Assembly (NCBI GenBank): GCA_903857495.1
Contig: CAIOFF010000020.1
Coordinates: 62,001-126,000, forward strand
DNA length: 64,000 nucleotides
From: an uncultured Holophagaceae bacterium
GTDB taxonomy: Bacteria > Acidobacteriota > Holophagae > Holophagales > Holophagaceae
Direction of reading: 5' to 3'
The translations under genes were made by a program, and so were the position numbers. The notes beneath the pieces were generated by a model. The model did no database searches. It worked only from the letters and a program-made list of their open reading frames with translations, and was not told the origin of the DNA. Positions 7,765 to 31,906 of the stretch are shown one piece after another. Positions within the stretch are counted from its first letter, which is position 1; each line of letters starts with the position of its first letter.

Positions 7765-8541
7765 TCACTTGAGGTTCTGAATGGCGCGGATCTGCGCGTC
7801 TTGGACGGCCTTCGTGACCTGAGTGAGGGCAGTCGTGGCCTGGGTGACCTTCTCCAGCATGGCCGTCATCTCGTTCTTCAGGCGCTTCTCGAACTCGTTG
7901 CGCCCCACCGTGGAGGCTTTCGCGATGCCCGTGAGCACGGCATTCCCCGTCGCAATGGCTGCCCGGATCTCCGTTTCGCTGGGGGGGCCGTTCGGCACCT
8001 GGCAATCGATCTCGATCTTGGTCAGAGGATCCCGGCAGCGGCCCTTCTTCGTGGCCGGCCGGTTCCCCACGGGGCTGGGCAGCAGGGCGCGAAGGGCACT
8101 GAGGGCCTCGTCGCCGTGCCGGCGGAGGTCCCCGATGGCCGTGTTGAGGGAGTCTGTGGAGCGGGTGTTGGCCGCTGCAGTGTAGGCAGAGCGGGCGGAG
8201 GTTACAGCGGCCATGGCACTTCCGTAGGCCGTCAGGTTGGCCTCGAGGCTGCTCCAGGTGGGCGCCAGGGCTGGTCGGCTCATGGGCAGGCTCCAGAGGC
8301 GGCGGGCCTCAGCGAGGCCCGCCTGGGCCTCGTTCCAGCGCTGCCGATAGATGGGGTCGAGGCTCGGCCAGAGACCTTCCGCCGCCGTCCGGGCCTCCCG
8401 CACGCCCTTCTCTGCCAACGAGCGGCCGTAGTCGCCCGGATTGCCAAGGCGCTGGAGGATGCCCTTCGCCTCCTCCAGCAGATCAGACCCAATAGCCGCT
8501 GGCGCTAGCGTGGCGGCGAGGAACACTCCCAATGGCTTCAC
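7765..8541 (-). CDS. Exported alpha-helical protein of unknown function
   Basis: A 258-aa protein from GTG at 8541. The N-terminus VKPLGVFLAATLAPAAIG is a simple signal peptide. The rest is mostly amphipathic helix with many Ala, Leu and charged residues and two cysteines (KGRCRDP, EIDCQVP) near residue 170. The C-terminal 60 residues read as a long coiled helix (ending in QDAQIRAIQNLK). In-frame ATGs at 8601 and 8592 exist but lack a ribosome site and would bury the signal peptide. It is followed after seven bases by the other unknown exported protein. I recognise no family. Confidence 0.6.
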   Translation of the reverse strand: MKPLGVFLAATLAPAAIGSDLLEEAKGILQRLGNPGDYGRSLAEKGVREARTAAEGLWPSLDPIYRQRWNEAQAGLAEARRLWSLPMSRPALAPTWSSLEANLTAYGSAMAAVTSARSAYTAAANTRSTDSLNTAIGDLRRHGDEALSALRALLPSPVGNRPATKKGRCRDPLTKIEIDCQVPNGPPSETEIRAAIATGNAVLTGIAKASTVGRNEFEKRLKNEMTAMLEKVTQATTALTQVTKAVQDAQIRAIQNLK

Positions 8542-8609
8542 TCGACTACCCCCAGGTGAGCGTAGGGCGAGCCCTCCGCGTGGATGATGCATGGCCTTCA
8601 TTGGTGAAA

Positions 8610-9995
8610 TTAGGAAAAACCATAGCATCCAGCCGCGATCTTGGAATAGGTTAATTCGGCCTTGAGATCGAGGCCTCTCTGGATCAGCGCCAAGCTGGCG
8701 GACGGTAGCTGGAAGAAGTTGCGCGCCAGGGCGGCGTCTGCCGCGTAGGCCCGCCGCACCCCTTCGAGCGACCACTGCTCGGGGAAGGGCTCGTAGCGCA
8801 GGGGGGGCTCCCGCAGCCACCACTCCGTGAACCCGAAGTGCGCATGGTGGCGTTCGTAGACTTCCGTGCCCGGATACGGGACGAGCACCCCACGGGCGTT
8901 GAAGGAGGCCGCCAGGGGAGCCGCTTCCTGGAGGAAGGCAAGGGTGGTTCGCAGCTCCTGGTCCGTCTCGTCCGGCCAGCCGAACATGAGGTTGAGCATG
9001 CAGTGCAGCCCGATCGCCTGGGCGTCCCGCAGGACCTGCAGCACCCGCTCCACCGTCACTCCCTTGCCGATGCGCAGCAGCATGTCGGGATCACCACTCT
9101 CCATGCCGATATCAACCGACGTGCAACCGGCGGCCCGCATGCGGACCAGGAGATCCCGGTGCAGGTGGGCGGGGTGGGCGGTGCAGCTCCAGGTCACACG
9201 GCGAGGCAGGCTAGCCAGGGCCTCGCACAAGTCCTCGACCCGGCGACGGCCGACCGCGAAGGAATCATCGAAGAAGCTGAAGGAGACCAGGCCGATCGTC
9301 TCCTGCAGGCGCGTGATCTCGGCGCAGATGGCCCCGGGCGAGCGGTGGCGGAAGACCCGGCCGGTGACGTTGTTGCTGCAGAAGGTGCAGGCGGCGGGGC
9401 AGCCGCGGCTGGAGAGGAGGCCAGCCGGGGAGACGGGGTGGGAGGCGCCATACCAGGCCGGGTCGAAGAGCTCGAGCGCGTCCAGAGGGGAGGCGAGCGC
9501 GTCCAGGTCGGTCAGGAGGCCCCGGGCGGGATTGACCTCCGGTGAGCCGTCGGGTCCGCGCCAGACCAGGGACCGGACACTGGAGAGGGGGCGTCGGCCA
9601 TCCAGCGCGTCTGCCAGTTCCGTGAGCGTCTCCTCTCCCTCTCCGACCACGGCGAAGTCGAACCCGTGGGCGAGGGGTTCCCGGGGAACCACCGTGGGAT
9701 GGGGGCCACCGCAGACCAGCGGCGCGGTCAGGCCATGAGTGCGGAGGGCCGCGGCGAGGGCGTAGCTGTCCTGCACGAAGAGGGTCTTGGCGTGGATGCC
9801 CACGAGGGCGGGGTCGAAGGCTCGGACCAACTGGGCGATGGTCTCGGGAGTCTTGGGCGCGAAGGGCGCAGAGGCATCCAGCAGGGCCACCTCGTGCCCG
9901 GCTCGGCGCAACGCGGCCGCCAGGTAAGCGAAGGCCAGCAGCGGGGTCCGGATGGGTTCATCCGTGGCCGGATTCAGGAGGAAGACGCGTGCCAT
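8610..9995 (-). CDS. Radical SAM protein with N-terminal cobalamin-binding-type domain
   Basis: A 461-aa enzyme. Residues 1-135 have the B12-binding-like Rossmann pattern of this superfamily (LLNPATDEPIRTPLLAFAYL, LVCGGPHPTVVPRE, FAVVGEGEETLTEL). The radical SAM barrel carries the 4Fe-4S motif SSRGCPAACTFCSNN (CxxxCxxC), and later SFFDDSF and GMESGDPDMLLRIGKG support SAM binding. Such enzymes do methyl transfers or ring and chain rearrangements on lipids or natural products; the substrate cannot be inferred here. The DxHxxG motif for base-off B12 is not clear. It lies 87 bases downstream of the PhyH-type gene and just upstream of two unknown exported proteins. Confidence 0.85.
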   Translation of the reverse strand: MARVFLLNPATDEPIRTPLLAFAYLAAALRRAGHEVALLDASAPFAPKTPETIAQLVRAFDPALVGIHAKTLFVQDSYALAAALRTHGLTAPLVCGGPHPTVVPREPLAHGFDFAVVGEGEETLTELADALDGRRPLSSVRSLVWRGPDGSPEVNPARGLLTDLDALASPLDALELFDPAWYGASHPVSPAGLLSSRGCPAACTFCSNNVTGRVFRHRSPGAICAEITRLQETIGLVSFSFFDDSFAVGRRRVEDLCEALASLPRRVTWSCTAHPAHLHRDLLVRMRAAGCTSVDIGMESGDPDMLLRIGKGVTVERVLQVLRDAQAIGLHCMLNLMFGWPDETDQELRTTLAFLQEAAPLAASFNARGVLVPYPGTEVYERHHAHFGFTEWWLREPPLRYEPFPEQWSLEGVRRAYAADAALARNFFQLPSASLALIQRGLDLKAELTYSKIAAGCYGFS

Positions 9996-10082
9996 CCGGG
10001 AAGTCTAGTGCAGCTCGCCAGAGATGCCGGGCTTAAGTTGGGTCATGGGGAGGTGGGCGATTGCATGCTCCCGGCCCGCTGC

Positions 10083-10799
10083 TCAGTCCGCCTTCTTGCG
10101 ATACCGGCAGTCCACCGACACCCTGAGCCGCCTCGGATCCCGGTTGTGCTGGGCGGCGTGGATGGTCAGCGGGTGGAAGAGCAGGACGTCCCCGAGGCGG
10201 AAATCCGAGCCAGCCCACTCCGTGCCCTCGGGCACCGCCATGCCGCTGACGCCGGGTCCGTGCGGCCGCAACCCGGCGAGGTGGCTGCCGGGAATCAGCC
10301 GCAGGGCGCCGAGGCTGCCGGGGCAGTCGCCCAGGGGGATCCAGGCGGTCCAGGAGCCGGACCCGGCCTGGTGGTAGTAGGCCTGGTCCTGGTGCGGGCG
10401 GGTGGTGTGCGCTTCCGAAGCCGGGAAGGCCAGACGGCAGACCTCGCCGCAGCGGGACTGGATCGGTCCGCCCAGGCAGCGCTCGAGGAGCGTGATCAGG
10501 GCCGGGTGCTCTCGCAGGGCGTCGAACTCCCTTCGGCTCTGCACGCCCACCTGCAAGGCCACAAAGCACGGGTCGTCGTAGCTCGGGGTCTGCAGACCAG
10601 GGCGGGCGATGCCTTCCATGAGCTCGCTCTCGGGGTTGAGGAGATCCAGGTCGGCCGCCTGCTGCAGCAGGATTCGCCGGAGCATCCTCAGGTCCTCGAC
10701 AGGCAGCAGCTCCCGGACAAAGAGGTAGCCGAGGTCCTCGGCCTGGGCGCGGAGGGCGTTGGAAGGGAGGCGTTCAGGGTCGGCGGTCAGGAATTCCAT
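10083..10799 (-). CDS. Phytanoyl-CoA dioxygenase (PhyH) family protein
   Basis: A 238-aa Fe(II)/2-oxoglutarate oxygenase. The iron ligands are visible: HxD in RPHQDQAYYH and the distal His in HPLTIHAAQHNRDPRRLRVS, whose Arg would hold 2-oxoglutarate. WIPLGDCPGSLGALRLIPGSH is the characteristic middle strand of the family. There is no signal peptide. PhyH relatives hydroxylate many small molecules, so the substrate is unknown. Being followed by a radical SAM enzyme on the same strand suggests a short tailoring pathway. The gene is divergent from mrp. Confidence 0.85.
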   Translation of the reverse strand: MEFLTADPERLPSNALRAQAEDLGYLFVRELLPVEDLRMLRRILLQQAADLDLLNPESELMEGIARPGLQTPSYDDPCFVALQVGVQSRREFDALREHPALITLLERCLGGPIQSRCGEVCRLAFPASEAHTTRPHQDQAYYHQAGSGSWTAWIPLGDCPGSLGALRLIPGSHLAGLRPHGPGVSGMAVPEGTEWAGSDFRLGDVLLFHPLTIHAAQHNRDPRRLRVSVDCRYRKKAD

Positions 10800-22615: not shown

Positions 22616-23656
22616 ATGCGCATCGGCATCCTGGGATACGGCCGCTTCGGGGTGGCCCTGGGCTCGCTGCTCCGCGAAGCAGGGCTGCCCTACCGCGCCT
22701 GGGATCCTGTGGCCCCGGTCCCGGCCGAGTGCCGGGCGGCCAGCGTACTGGACCTGGTCGAGGGCCATGAGGTCCTGGTGCTGGCGGTGCCCATTCCGGC
22801 CCTGGAGGGTGTCCTCAAGCAGCTGCGGCCCCACCTGCGGCCCGACCACCTGCTGTTCGACGTCGGCAGCGTGAAGGTGGGTCCCTGCGCCTTGATGGCC
22901 CAGCACCTGGGCTCGGCCATCCCCTACGTCGGCACCCACCCGCTGTTTGGACCCGTGAGCCTAGCCCGGGCCGAGCGACCCCTGCGGGTGGTGCTCTGCG
23001 CGGCGCCGCAGCATCCGGCCGCGGCAGCGCGGGTGGAGTCCCTGTTCCGCCGCCTGGGCTGCGAGGTGCTGCAGCAGAGCGCCGAGGACCATGACCGCGT
23101 CATGGCCACCACCCACGCCCTCACGTTTTTCATCGCCAAGGGCCTGCTGGCGGTGGGCGCCGGGGCCGAGCTGCCCTTCACCCCGCCCTCCTTCCACGCC
23201 ATCGCCCACACCCTGGAGTCGGTGCAGGAGGATGCTGGCCACCTCTTCGCGGTCCTCCAGAACCAGAATCCCTTCGCCCAGGGCGCCCGGGTGGGCCTGC
23301 TTGAGGCCCTGTCCGCCATCCACCAGTCCCTGGCGGAAGCCCAGATCAGCGGAGGCGAGGAACAGCTGGCCATCCCCGACCTGGGAGCCCGGTCGCCGAT
23401 GCTGCAGGAGGCCCGCAACCACATCGACTCGCTGGATCAGGAGCTGGTCGCGTTGCTGGCGAGACGCACGGAGCTGGTCCTGCGGGCCGGCCGGGCCAAG
23501 GCCGAGCTGGGGCTGCCGATCCACGATCCTGAGCGCGAGAGCGCCCAGCTTGAGGCCCGGCGCGCCTGGGCCCAGGAAGCAGGCCTGGACATCCAGGGCG
23601 TCGAGGATGTCTTCCGCGCCGTCCTTCGGGCCAGCCGGGCAGCCCAGGGGAAGTAG
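22616..23656 (+). CDS. tyrA: Prephenate dehydrogenase with C-terminal chorismate mutase
   Basis: A 346-aa bifunctional enzyme of tyrosine synthesis. The N-terminal part binds NAD (MRIGILGYGRFGVALGSLL) and has the prephenate dehydrogenase motifs LLFDVGSVK and VGTHPLFGP (catalytic His). From about residue 260, ARNHIDSLDQELVALLARRTEL is an AroQ-type chorismate mutase. In E. coli TyrA the mutase is at the N-terminus; here the order is reversed. The mutase would convert chorismate to prephenate for the dehydrogenase. Start ATG with gaggga upstream. Confidence 0.9.
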   Translation: MRIGILGYGRFGVALGSLLREAGLPYRAWDPVAPVPAECRAASVLDLVEGHEVLVLAVPIPALEGVLKQLRPHLRPDHLLFDVGSVKVGPCALMAQHLGSAIPYVGTHPLFGPVSLARAERPLRVVLCAAPQHPAAAARVESLFRRLGCEVLQQSAEDHDRVMATTHALTFFIAKGLLAVGAGAELPFTPPSFHAIAHTLESVQEDAGHLFAVLQNQNPFAQGARVGLLEALSAIHQSLAEAQISGGEEQLAIPDLGARSPMLQEARNHIDSLDQELVALLARRTELVLRAGRAKAELGLPIHDPERESAQLEARRAWAQEAGLDIQGVEDVFRAVLRASRAAQGK

Positions 23657-27613: not shown

Positions 27614-28021
27614 GTGAAGGTGCCCCGTTTCCTGCCCGTCCTCACCCTGCTACTGGGAGCCGTGCTCCCCCTGGCCGCGGGAGAATTCGCTGTGCTCAAG
27701 TCCGAGACGGAACTCGCCCGCAAGGAGCTGGTGACCATGGTGCTCTACCGGGACAAACGCACCCCCGAGCAGCAGAAGCTGGTCAAGGACACGGCCAACG
27801 CCGTCAGCGCCCACCTCGCGAAGATGAAGGCCCCGGCGGGCCGGGGGCCCCAGTTCAAGGAGCTCAAGGAGACCTGGGAGGCCTTCAAGCACACCCGCGA
27901 GACCGAGCTGGTGCCGGCCATCCTGGCGGGGGAGAAGGAGAAGGCCGAGAAGATCGCCGCAGGCATCCAGAAGGTGCGCCTCGAGCGGTGCTACGCCCTC
28001 ATGCTCGAGCTGGACAAGTAG
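27614..28021 (+). CDS. Exported four-helix-type protein of unknown function
   Basis: A 135-aa protein from GTG 27614, with a ggaggt site. Signal peptide VKVPRFLPVLTLLLGAVLPLAAG. The mature part is helical and charged (ETELARKELVTMVLYRDKRT ... RLERCYALMLELD), similar in look to the four-helix-bundle sensor modules of chemoreceptors, but without TM anchor at the C-terminus. Its last 23 bases overlap the end of the convergent Mur-ligase fusion gene. Confidence 0.6.
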   Translation: MKVPRFLPVLTLLLGAVLPLAAGEFAVLKSETELARKELVTMVLYRDKRTPEQQKLVKDTANAVSAHLAKMKAPAGRGPQFKELKETWEAFKHTRETELVPAILAGEKEKAEKIAAGIQKVRLERCYALMLELDK

Positions 28022-29957
28022 GCTCCGCGAGCCGGGTAAGGATCTGCCGGGAGAGCTCCGTGAGGGAGGGATCCCGGGCGCCCATCACCAGGACCAGGTC
28101 GCCGGGCAGGGCCTCTGCGGCCAGGCGCGTCACCAGCCAGTCCCGAGAGGGGGCGTGCTCGGCGGTGCCGAGGCGCGGCAGGATGTCGGCGATCACCTCG
28201 GCGCTGCTGATGTCCCGGGCGGCGGTGCCGCCGGCGTAGAAGACATCCAGGAACCAGAGCCGGTCCTGAGTCCGCAGCTCCGTGGCGAAGGTCTCCACGA
28301 AGTCCGCGCGCAGGAACTTGAGGGGGCCGAAGCCGTGAGGCTGGAAGATGGCCAGCACCCTGCCGCCGGTGCCCTCCACCCGCAGGTGCGCGGCCCGGAT
28401 GGAGGCCGCGACCTTCGCGGGGTTGTGGCCGAAGTCGTCCACCACGGTGACGCCTCGGGCGGTGCCCAGCACCTGGAAGCGGCGGGCCACGCCCTGGAAA
28501 CCGGCCAGGGGCGCGCCCATGGCCGCCAGGGGCACGCCCAGAGCGGCGCAGGCCGCCATGGCCGCAAGCGCGTTCTCCAGGTTGTGCCGGCCCGGGACCG
28601 GCAGCCGGAAGGGCTGACCGCGCACCGTGAAGGTGGTGCCCTCGGGACCGGTCTGGATGGCCTCGGCCCGGAAGGCGGCCCCGGGTCCGCAGCCGAAGAC
28701 CGTGGCACCAACGGCGAACTCCCGCAGGTTGTCGGCCTCGCCCACGAGGGCGCCTTCGCGCAGCTGGGAACAGAAGGTGCGGAACATCGCCGCCACCGCG
28801 TCCATCTCCTTGTGGTCCCGCTGGAGGTTGAGCAGCACGCCCAGGGCCGCGTGGTAGCGCACCACGGAGCCGTCGCTCTCATCGGCCTCGATGACCAGCA
28901 GGTCGGACGGTCCCGCCCAGGCGTTGCCCCAGAGTCCCTCCCGCTGCAGCTCCACCAGCTCGCCGCCGGTGATGATCGAAGGCTCGCGGCCCGCGCCCCG
29001 GAGGATCGCGAAGACCATGGCGGCGGTGGTGGACTTGCCGCTGGTGCCGGTCACCGCCACGGTGCGGTAGCGCGCCACCAGGTGCGCCAGCAGCTCGGAG
29101 CGGTGCAGCACCGGGACCCCCAGGCGACGCGCCGCCGCCACGTCCGGCACGTCCTCCTCCACGGCGGTGGACACGACCAGGGCCGCGCAGTCACCCGCGA
29201 GGCCCGCCCCGTCCTGGGGGAAGATCGTCACGCCCAGGGCCTCCAGCCGGGCGCGGTCCTCGGGGCGCTGGGCCCGGTCGAAGCTGCGGTCGCTGCCGCT
29301 GGCGCGGCCGCCCTTCATGGCCACGAACTGGGCCAGGGCGCTCATGCCGCTGCCCGCCACACCCGCGAAGTGCAGTCGGCCGAGCCCCAGGCCATCACCC
29401 GACAGCCCGTCGGCGATGAGCACGGGATCCCCCACCGCCACGCGGTCGAAGAGGTCCACGACCTCGGCGTTGCCCAGCCGCACGCAGCCGTGGGAGACGG
29501 GCTGGCCCAGCAGACCCTCCTGGTTGGTGCCGTGCAGGTAGATGAAGCGCTCGAAGGAGTCGTGGCCGGGACCACGGTTCCAGCCTTCCTCCAGGCCCTC
29601 CAGGGGCAGCACCCGGGTGAGGATGAGGTCCTCCGTGCGGGGCTCGCCATGCCAGACCTCGCCCGTGGGCACCTTGGCGCGGAAGACGGCGCCCGGTTCC
29701 GCTCCGGCGCCGAGGCAGGCCTGGATGCGATGCCAGCCCGTGGGCGTGCGGTAGGAATTCTCCTGGCACCCCAGTCCGTTCAAGGCGGTGGAGATGGCGG
29801 CCTCGAAGACCAGCCGGCCGCCTTCCAGGAGGCCCAGGCGCTGGGCCTGGGCGTCCACCACCAGGATCCGGTCGCCGGCCGGGTCGGGAGCGCCTGGGCG
29901 CGAGCGGGCGGCGACCGCCATGGCCCGGTAGCGCGCCGCCAGGACAGGATCGATCAC
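27999..29957 (-). CDS. L,D-transpeptidase (YkuD) fused to a MurC/Mpl-like Mur ligase
   Basis: A 652-aa fusion. Residues 30-182 are a YkuD L,D-transpeptidase: FIYLHGTNQEG (His142) and PVSHGCVRL (His156, Cys158). From residue 195 a full Mur ligase follows: LHFAGVAGSGMSALAQF (Rossmann), VTGTSGKSTTAAM (ATP loop, 302-314), IEADESDGS and VVDDFGHNPAKVA. The last motif is DDFGHNP rather than the usual DDYxHHP. No signal peptide is seen, odd for an L,D-transpeptidase, which normally works in the periplasm. Start GTG overlaps the upstream stop (GTGA, four bases), so translation is coupled. Likely a peptidoglycan precursor or recycling role; substrate unknown. Confidence 0.85.
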   Translation of the reverse strand: MIDPVLAARYRAMAVAARSRPGAPDPAGDRILVVDAQAQRLGLLEGGRLVFEAAISTALNGLGCQENSYRTPTGWHRIQACLGAGAEPGAVFRAKVPTGEVWHGEPRTEDLILTRVLPLEGLEEGWNRGPGHDSFERFIYLHGTNQEGLLGQPVSHGCVRLGNAEVVDLFDRVAVGDPVLIADGLSGDGLGLGRLHFAGVAGSGMSALAQFVAMKGGRASGSDRSFDRAQRPEDRARLEALGVTIFPQDGAGLAGDCAALVVSTAVEEDVPDVAAARRLGVPVLHRSELLAHLVARYRTVAVTGTSGKSTTAAMVFAILRGAGREPSIITGGELVELQREGLWGNAWAGPSDLLVIEADESDGSVVRYHAALGVLLNLQRDHKEMDAVAAMFRTFCSQLREGALVGEADNLREFAVGATVFGCGPGAAFRAEAIQTGPEGTTFTVRGQPFRLPVPGRHNLENALAAMAACAALGVPLAAMGAPLAGFQGVARRFQVLGTARGVTVVDDFGHNPAKVAASIRAAHLRVEGTGGRVLAIFQPHGFGPLKFLRADFVETFATELRTQDRLWFLDVFYAGGTAARDISSAEVIADILPRLGTAEHAPSRDWLVTRLAAEALPGDLVLVMGARDPSLTELSRQILTRLAEPTCPARA

Positions 29958-31906
29958 GAGTCGGCTCCGACGATCCGCCCGGCGAGGGCGCTGGCGGCGA
30001 CGGTGGCGGGGCTGGCCAGCCACATCTGGCCCGGGCCGCTGCGGCCGGGGAAGTTTCGGTTGATGGCGCTGACCGTGACCTGGTCCGCCCGGCTGGAGAC
30101 GCCGGGACCGGCGTTGATGCAGGCCCCGCAGGAGCTGCCGAGCACCACCGCGCCGACGGCCTCGAAGGCCTTGAGCCAGCCCTCGGCCTCGGCGTAGCGG
30201 CGCACGTCCTCGCTGCCGCACTGCACGAAGAACTGCACCCCCTCGGGGACGCGGCGACCGGCCCGGACTGCGGGGAGGATGGCCTCGTAGGCCCGGCGGA
30301 GGTCCTCGCGCTTGCCGCCGGTGCAGCTGCCCAGGTAGGCGATGTCGATGGGCACCGCCTCGGCGAGGTCCGCCAGGGCCAGGCCGTTGCCGGGGTCGCC
30401 CGGGCGGGCCAGCATGGGGCCTAGCGCGGCGCAGTCGAGGTCCAGGGTGTGGGCGTAGTCGGCGTCCTCGTCGCCGCGCATCCAGGGCTCCAGAGCCAGG
30501 TCCAGGCCGCGGCGCTCCTTGAGGAAGCGGCAGGTCTCCGCGTCCGGGGCCACCAGGCCTGTGAAGCCGCCGATCTCGGCGGCCATGTTGGTCAGGGTGG
30601 CGCGCTCGTCCGTGTCGAGATCCCGCAGGCCCTCGCCCTGATACTCGATGACATGGCCGAGGGCGCCGCCCTCGCGGATCAGGGGCTGGGCCAGCAGGTG
30701 CAGGACCAGATCCTTGGCGGACACACCGGCCCGCAGCCGGCCGTTGAGGCGCACCCGCAGGGTGGGCGGCACCGTGACGCGGACATCGCCGGTGACCCAG
30801 GCGCAAGCGATGTCCGTGGTGCCGATGCCGAAGGCCAGGCAGCCCAGGGCGCCCGAGTGGGGGGTATGCGAGTCGGTGCCCACGACTACCTGGCCGGGGC
30901 CGGCATAGCGCTCGGTCATGAGGGCGTGGCAGATGCCCTCGCTGCCGGAGCCATCGGCGAGCTCGCCGTGGAGGCGGATGCCATGCCGGGCGCAGAAGGC
31001 CTCCTGGGCCGGCTTGAGGCCCTCGGCCACCGCCAGCAGGCCCAGGGCTCGGTGGTCCGGGTGGATGCTGTGGTGCAGGAAGGTGAGGTGGTCGCGGAAG
31101 GCCAGGATGGACGCCGGGTCGCGGAGTACCGCCTCGGGTCCCAGGGCCTGCTCCAGGAACCGGGCGGCCATGGGGGTCACGTACTCGTGGCTGAAGCGCC
31201 AGTCCGCCCGCACGAAGAGGCCGTCGCCGGGCCGCACCGCCGGAAGCCCGGTCTTGCCGGCGGCCGCGTCTGCGATGGCGTGGCGGGCCAGCAGCTTCTC
31301 CGCGTAGGTCATGGGGCGTGCTGCATGGGCCGGGAGGGGCGGCGCGACCTCGCCCGTCAGCCGCGCGGCGTTGTAGGCGAAGAGACCCCCGCGCCGCACG
31401 ATCTCGGCGGTGACCGGATCGAGCCCATCTGTGAACTCGGCGAGGGGGATGGCCTCGCCCTGGCGCAGACGCGACACCAGGCCGAAGTCCGTGCTGGTGA
31501 GCAGGCCCAGGTTCTGGCAGTTCTGGCGGTAGATGCGCTCGAAGCTCTCGGCGATCACCAGGCGGAGGCCCGCGCACCACTCGGCGTAGGGACTGGCCTC
31601 GCGGCTGCTGCCCTTGCCCCGCCGCTTGCCGGCCACGCTGACCACGAAGCCGCCGGCCCGCACGGCGCCCTCCCCGATGGGAGACATGCCACCACAACGC
31701 AGGCCGAGGTACGGGAAGTCACCCAGCTTCTCGTCGTAGTGGTAGCAGATGTGGGCGGGCGTGATCTCGTCGGTGCTGATCTGGTCCCGGAGCGGACCGG
31801 CCGCTTCCAGTGTCAGGTCCTCGCCAGCGAGCTGCCGGAGGATCCGGGCCGGATCCTCCGAGAGGAAAAGGATTCGGCCAGCAAAGCGGATCGAGTCGGG
31901 CAGCAT
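29954..31906 (-). CDS. Aconitase-family hydro-lyase with LeuD-like domain in front of LeuC-like domain
   Basis: A 650-aa protein. Residues 1-170 form the swivel domain (DQISTDEITPAHICY; GKRRGKGSSREASPYAEW, where the SSRE loop binds substrate). Residues 220-650 form the Fe-S large-subunit part: VVGTDSHTPHSGALG, the first cluster Cys in YLGSCTGGKRED, and the pair in LGSSCGACINAG. In most leucine pathways LeuC and LeuD are separate, and in aconitase the swivel is C-terminal; here it is N-terminal. It could be 3-isopropylmalate dehydratase, a homoaconitase or another relative. Coupled to the transpeptidase-Mur ligase gene. Confidence 0.8.
   Translation of the reverse strand: MLPDSIRFAGRILFLSEDPARILRQLAGEDLTLEAAGPLRDQISTDEITPAHICYHYDEKLGDFPYLGLRCGGMSPIGEGAVRAGGFVVSVAGKRRGKGSSREASPYAEWCAGLRLVIAESFERIYRQNCQNLGLLTSTDFGLVSRLRQGEAIPLAEFTDGLDPVTAEIVRRGGLFAYNAARLTGEVAPPLPAHAARPMTYAEKLLARHAIADAAAGKTGLPAVRPGDGLFVRADWRFSHEYVTPMAARFLEQALGPEAVLRDPASILAFRDHLTFLHHSIHPDHRALGLLAVAEGLKPAQEAFCARHGIRLHGELADGSGSEGICHALMTERYAGPGQVVVGTDSHTPHSGALGCLAFGIGTTDIACAWVTGDVRVTVPPTLRVRLNGRLRAGVSAKDLVLHLLAQPLIREGGALGHVIEYQGEGLRDLDTDERATLTNMAAEIGGFTGLVAPDAETCRFLKERRGLDLALEPWMRGDEDADYAHTLDLDCAALGPMLARPGDPGNGLALADLAEAVPIDIAYLGSCTGGKREDLRRAYEAILPAVRAGRRVPEGVQFFVQCGSEDVRRYAEAEGWLKAFEAVGAVVLGSSCGACINAGPGVSSRADQVTVSAINRNFPGRSGPGQMWLASPATVAASALAGRIVGADS

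Follow-up and report, generated by a model that had tools for sequence, protein, structure and literature searches.

A YkuD-Mur ligase fusion protein of Holophagaceae with a putative role in peptidoglycan peptide recycling

The fusion gene and its distribution

The window, by which we mean the whole 64,000-nucleotide stretch analysed (contig CAIOFF010000020.1), comes from a genome of the Holophagaceae near Geothrix, the nearest matches in a scan of genome contigs being Holophagaceae MAGs and Geothrix species. From the translated open reading frames, a single frame of 652 codons specifies a YkuD domain followed by a Mur ligase with all three of its domains (Table 1). All four domains scored far over the Pfam cut-off, with an E-value of 6.9e-20 for YkuD, and 51 of the 63 loci recovered in the contig scan contain both halves. 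The preliminary description of this DNA was therefore right to place the two in one polypeptide. The whole fusion was modelled with AlphaFold2 at a pLDDT of 92.6 and a pTM of 0.90. A fold search with this full model listed ligase matches only, and the YkuD model was searched separately.

Table 1. Fusion gene, domains, motifs and upstream neighbour (window coordinates)
Feature	Position	Strand	Remarks
YkuD-Mur ligase fusion gene	27999..29957	-	652 aa, GTG start, stop included
YkuD domain, ElsL-type L,D-carboxypeptidase-like	29415..29870	-	residues 30-181; Pfam, NF040925, YkuD tree, structure
His142, putative catalytic base, HGTN motif	29532..29534	-	invariant in 27 fusion orthologues
Cys158, putative catalytic nucleophile, SHGC motif	29484..29486	-	invariant in 27 fusion orthologues
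Mur ligase N-terminal (UDP-binding) domain	29064..29375	-	residues 195-298; PF01225 Mur_ligase
Mur ligase middle (ATP-binding) domain	28548..29054	-	residues 302-470; PF08245 Mur_ligase_M
Mur ligase C-terminal domain (incoming substrate)	28074..28484	-	residues 492-628; PF02875 Mur_ligase_C
P-loop GTSGKST	29028..29048	-	residues 304-310; translation and conservation
EADESD motif, Mg/ATP site	28872..28889	-	residues 357-362; translation and conservation
Clade signature DDFGHNPAK	28413..28439	-	residues 507-515; alignment
Clade signature QPHGFGP	28323..28343	-	residues 539-545; alignment
Aconitase-like gene, upstream of fusion	29954..31906	-	4-base overlap with fusion

The GTG start of the fusion overlaps the TGA stop of the aconitase-like gene, and the two are perhaps translationally coupled. 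No functional tie between them is known, and the operon context is uninformative. The aconitase-like protein itself (650 residues) carries an Aconitase_C stretch (residues 89-137) before the Aconitase domain (232-643), which is the reverse of the usual order, and a reading frame of similar look also precedes the fusion at locus L010.

The one-frame fusion is kept in about 50 genomes of the Holophagaceae/Geothrix group and of the Hyphomicrobiaceae (Methyloceanibacter), with 58-61% identity for the copies in Methyloceanibacter and in one further genome of that family. In the phylum sample it was found in 14 of 14 genomes of the same genus, although in one of these it is broken into two stretches and contains a stop, as well as in 3 of 4 others of the same family; it was absent from the rest of the sampled phylum. 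The samples were tool-drawn and non-exhaustive and the relatives are not independent, so these counts serve as no statistical test. A separate start giving two proteins, which had been named as a possible refutation, was also sought: among 41 fusion frames checked there were no internal stops and no conserved start codon at the YkuD/ligase junction. A search of the open-licence literature returned no description of the fusion or of its ligase clade.

The YkuD half

Among NCBIfam models, the YkuD half is best matched by that of ElsL (NF040925), with 125 bits against a cut-off of 270, and since it misses this curated value we refer to it as ElsL-like, not as ElsL. The same cut-off was reached in none of 150 sampled Pseudomonadota genomes, though 84 have matches below 1e-30, so that the threshold would appear to single out near relatives of the Acinetobacter protein alone. 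In the tree of YkuD domains, for which the ElsL set was picked by NF040925 itself and A. baumannii ElsL was left out, a single clade of fusion halves (100/99) is nested among the matches to the ElsL model, and this whole group is separate from E. coli LdtB and LdtE (97/94). The clade relations given here and below rest on one alignment and one tree per domain. The model of the YkuD half is similar in fold to YkuD of B. subtilis (Z 17.1, rmsd 2.3, 116 aligned).

Three residues of the YkuD domain, His142, His156 and Cys158, had been named in the preliminary description. The first and last are invariant in 27 fusion orthologues, together with S155, G157 and R160; H156 is not, being C or Q in some Hyphomicrobiaceae fusions (L046, L048, L049 and L050), and the second histidine of the SHGC motif may not be strictly needed. 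The lack of a signal peptide, also noted earlier, was borne out by a hydrophobicity scan, which found no N-terminal hydrophobic segment or export signal in the fusion protein; its most hydrophobic 12-residue stretch within the first 60 residues has a mean of 1.33, versus 2.49 for E. coli LdtB. A secreted L,D-transpeptidase was ruled out on the grounds that the fusion has no signal peptide or membrane anchor. In each of six relatives, no YkuD domain other than that of the fusion was found.

ElsL of Acinetobacter baumannii is a leaderless cytoplasmic L,D-carboxypeptidase of the YkuD type which strips D-Ala from tetrapeptides, though not from pentapeptides, during recycling; its loss leads to the accumulation of tetrapeptide precursors, which is toxic (PMC8649774). 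The YkuD half shares with it the leaderless state and the His/Cys motif and groups with the ElsL-model hits, but is fused to a ligase and scores under the ElsL cut-off, whereas ElsL stands alone. The apparent paradox of a cytoplasmic YkuD enzyme is resolved by this grouping of a leaderless domain with a cytoplasmic recycling L,D-carboxypeptidase, and the fusion would show how such an enzyme can serve inside the cell in relatives of Geothrix. The stand-alone YkuD protein closest to the YkuD half within the class comes from a different family (L118:1345-1989, + strand). It has an apparent signal peptide, which counts against a cytoplasmic recycling role for the fusion.

The ligase half and its partners

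The ligase half belongs to the Mur ligase superfamily, as judged from its three domains, P-loop, ADES motif and Mur fold. The ATP loop and ADES motif were correctly reported as intact (GTSGKST and EADESD): G304, T305, G307 and K308 are invariant and S309 and T310 nearly so, and in the second motif E357 and D359-D362 are invariant. The earlier term "MurC/Mpl-like" was only loosely right. The best-scoring model is that of MurC (TIGR01082), with 292 bits against a cut-off of 335, and the Mpl model (TIGR01081) gave 112 bits against 389. In a maximum-likelihood tree the fused ligases and their unfused relatives form one clade (98/99) falling outside both MurC (100/96) and Mpl (95/90). Its members carry the signatures DDFxHN[P/A]xK, with DDYAHN in one of them, and QPHG. 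At the matching sites the sequences are DDYGHHP and QPHR[YF][ST]R in MurC, against DDFAHHPTA and, with few exceptions, EPRS in Mpl. The deviant motif DDFGHNP, which had been singled out as different from MurC, has thus proved to be a clade signature. The cut-offs, the signature residues and the tree all speak against placing the ligase half in MurC or Mpl, and both assignments were rejected; from its sequence it represents a third clade of UDP-MurNAc ligases, apparently undescribed.

MurC is believed to bind its incoming L-Ala through Arg377 and Arg380 (H. influenzae numbering), both of which Mpl lacks (PMC3060825). The corresponding positions in the window protein are Gly and Pro, and these arginines are lost in all clade members checked, fused and unfused. 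We infer that this loss, as in Mpl, fits a peptide better than a free amino acid as the incoming substrate. Mpl and the clade ligase are thus alike in having lost the L-Ala arginines and in the predicted joining of recycled tripeptide to UDP-MurNAc. They differ in clade, in the score far under the Mpl cut-off, and in motifs: the window protein has QPHG in place of EPRS, and the Mpl motif (S/T)AFFDKRSK (PMC3060825) is not in its translation, where the region after EADESD reads GSVVRYHAALG.

Within the ligase tree the fused proteins are a single group (100/100), and the Hyphomicrobiaceae copies lie among those of the Holophagaceae, which suggests transfer of the fusion gene between phyla. One Holophagaceae MAG (L060) has a ligase that belongs to the fusion group, with 66-80% identity over separate pieces, but is not fused, and that is followed by a leaderless S66 gene; this locus has masked stretches and should be read with caution. 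Further 3' in the same locus, at about 8290-10221, is a gene which by its sequence resembles the oligopeptide-binding protein of an ABC importer.

Clade ligases were found in 37 of 289 genomes in a sample of the Alphaproteobacteria. At 25 of 30 alphaproteobacterial loci fetched, the unfused ligase gene adjoins a gene for an S66 L,D-carboxypeptidase (LdcA), in divergent (16) or tandem (9) order; no S66 gene was seen beside MurC at 13 loci (L085-L097). In one alphaproteobacterial gene (L063:3455-5752, + strand) the ligase (residues 7-439) is fused to a C-terminal S66 domain (478-753). LdcA is accordingly a predicted partner activity, like the YkuD half, since its gene lies beside, or is joined to, that of a clade ligase, although it belongs to an unrelated serine-peptidase family and sits at the opposite end of the L063 fusion. 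Hence the same ligase type is joined to two unrelated enzymes that share L,D-carboxypeptidase activity, which points to selection for trimming together with ligation. Canonical Mpl, too, adjoins S66/LdcA in three acidobacteria (G061, G125 and G130). Five loci (L154, L159, L160, L163 and L167) have no S66 gene within about 1.5 kb of the clade ligase, and their genomes have no match to the ElsL model. Another genome with a clade ligase, G203, which may be incomplete, has neither an S66 nor an ElsL match; G204, whose clade ligase is unfused, lacks S66 and carries an ElsL-like gene that is leaderless and stands alone.

The genome from which the window derives encodes a true MurC apart from the fusion (556 bits) and an AmpG over the cut-off, but no Mpl over the cut-off. 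Mpl also failed to reach its cut-off in all 12 fusion genomes tested, and nine other acidobacteria have it. AmpG was not over the cut-off in G150, and the NagZ-like proteins of Holophagaceae were below theirs. An apparent MurNAc/GlcNAc salvage locus lies on contig C33 of the genome that holds the window (L204; 4000-16000), with a GH3 NagZ-like enzyme, a SIS protein, MurQ, an AmpG-like transporter, an acetyltransferase-like protein, a sugar kinase and an AmpD-like amidase with a peptidoglycan-binding domain. The one S66 protein of this genome (L207:2410-3606) has the likely start MTQNRRSFLQATLL, a Tat signal by eye, and is for that reason unlikely to be a cytoplasmic carboxypeptidase. The fusion is therefore the only leaderless L,D-carboxypeptidase candidate found, LdcV-type enzymes lying outside the search. 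A small genome of the same family (G174, 1.2 Mb) is without the fusion, S66, YkuD or canonical Mpl, and may have lost peptide recycling.

Proposed role and alternatives

We propose that the fusion probably works in the cytoplasm, where it would recycle peptidoglycan peptides by two activities. The YkuD half, acting as an ElsL-type L,D-carboxypeptidase, would remove the terminal D-Ala from recycled tetrapeptides, and the ligase half would attach the trimmed tripeptide to UDP-MurNAc. By coupling ligation to trimming, the fusion would limit the formation of UDP-MurNAc-tetrapeptide, a toxic dead-end precursor. This proposal draws on the ElsL affinity, the missing export signal, the third-clade ligase and its lost L-Ala arginines, as well as on the separate MurC, the absence of canonical Mpl, the presence of AmpG and the repeated linkage of the clade to unrelated L,D-carboxypeptidases. 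Both activities, their substrates and the gating role of the fusion are predictions; tripeptide specificity of the ligase, in particular, is presumed from the lost MurC residues and the gene context. Against the proposal stand the curated cut-offs for ElsL, MurC and Mpl, all of which were missed, and the S66 protein of the same genome, though this has an apparent Tat signal; the sub-threshold AmpG of G150 and NagZ-like proteins of Holophagaceae weigh on the same side. The suggestion in the preliminary description that a cytoplasmic YkuD domain might trim or recycle peptides finds support in the ElsL-type grouping and in the ties of the clade to L,D-carboxypeptidases elsewhere.

A variant in which only the order of the two steps differs is considerably less probable. 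Here the ligase would take both tri- and tetrapeptides and the YkuD half would edit afterwards, trimming UDP-MurNAc-tetrapeptide to the tripeptide form within the same protein. Mpl does act, though slowly, on tetra- and pentapeptides (PMC3060825), the toxicity seen on carboxypeptidase loss acts via tetrapeptide precursors (PMC8649774), and the fusion is modelled as a confident single unit.

It is improbable that the ligase is a second MurC which adds one amino acid, L-Ala or a different one, to UDP-MurNAc, with the YkuD half supplying or regulating it. MurC gives the top model score and the nearest structures, the ligase of our model matching 1p3d (MurC with UMA and ANP) with Z 46.1 and rmsd 2.0 over 436 aligned residues, and more weakly 3hn7 (Mpl; Z 30.8, rmsd 4.8, 426 aligned), and the motifs for UDP-MurNAc and ATP are retained. 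Yet the score lies under the MurC cut-off, DDYGHHP/QPHR is replaced by DDFGHNP/QPHG, the L-Ala arginines are gone from the clade members checked, the host has its own MurC, and the linkage to carboxypeptidases would be left unexplained. Slightly more doubtful still is a YkuD half working as a cytoplasmic L,D-transpeptidase or D-amino acid exchanger: the fold and Cys motif are common to L,D-transpeptidases, but the domain has affinity to the ElsL type and no export signal, and the partner of the ligase elsewhere is LdcA, a plain carboxypeptidase. An annotation or assembly artefact, or two proteins from one transcript, might be read into the GTG codons near the junction of the window copy, but is scarcely credible when about 50 genomes keep one frame, the junction start is not conserved, and L049 has no start codon ahead of the ligase glycine motif.

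Beyond the recycling role proposed for the fusion itself, we hypothesize, more tentatively, that the clade constitutes a third murein peptide ligase family. It would be partnered by rule with L,D-carboxypeptidases and would have been fused at least twice to unrelated ones, with the carboxypeptidase proofreading before or after ligation; this broader scheme is possible rather than probable. The toxicity of tetrapeptide precursors offers a possible reason for the selection for trimming with ligation. Since neither Mpl nor LdcA is found in them, several bacteria are believed to degrade recycled peptides to free amino acids, as argued for Caulobacter (PMC13046382) and for Agrobacterium (PMC9790009). 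The clade ligase would escape searches for Mpl, since under annotation models it comes out as an imperfect MurC. If the hypothesis is true, a third ligase family would provide a direct route of peptide recycling in those Alphaproteobacteria and Holophagaceae that apparently have no Mpl; the alphaproteobacterial count given above does not imply its presence in Caulobacter or Agrobacterium species.

Fusion of two enzymes of precursor metabolism is also known from MurB-MurC of Verrucomicrobium (PMC4803751), which differs in joining biosynthetic steps without a carboxypeptidase. The window itself contains a further fused gene (22616-23656, + strand), in which prephenate dehydrogenase is joined to chorismate mutase with the dehydrogenase first.
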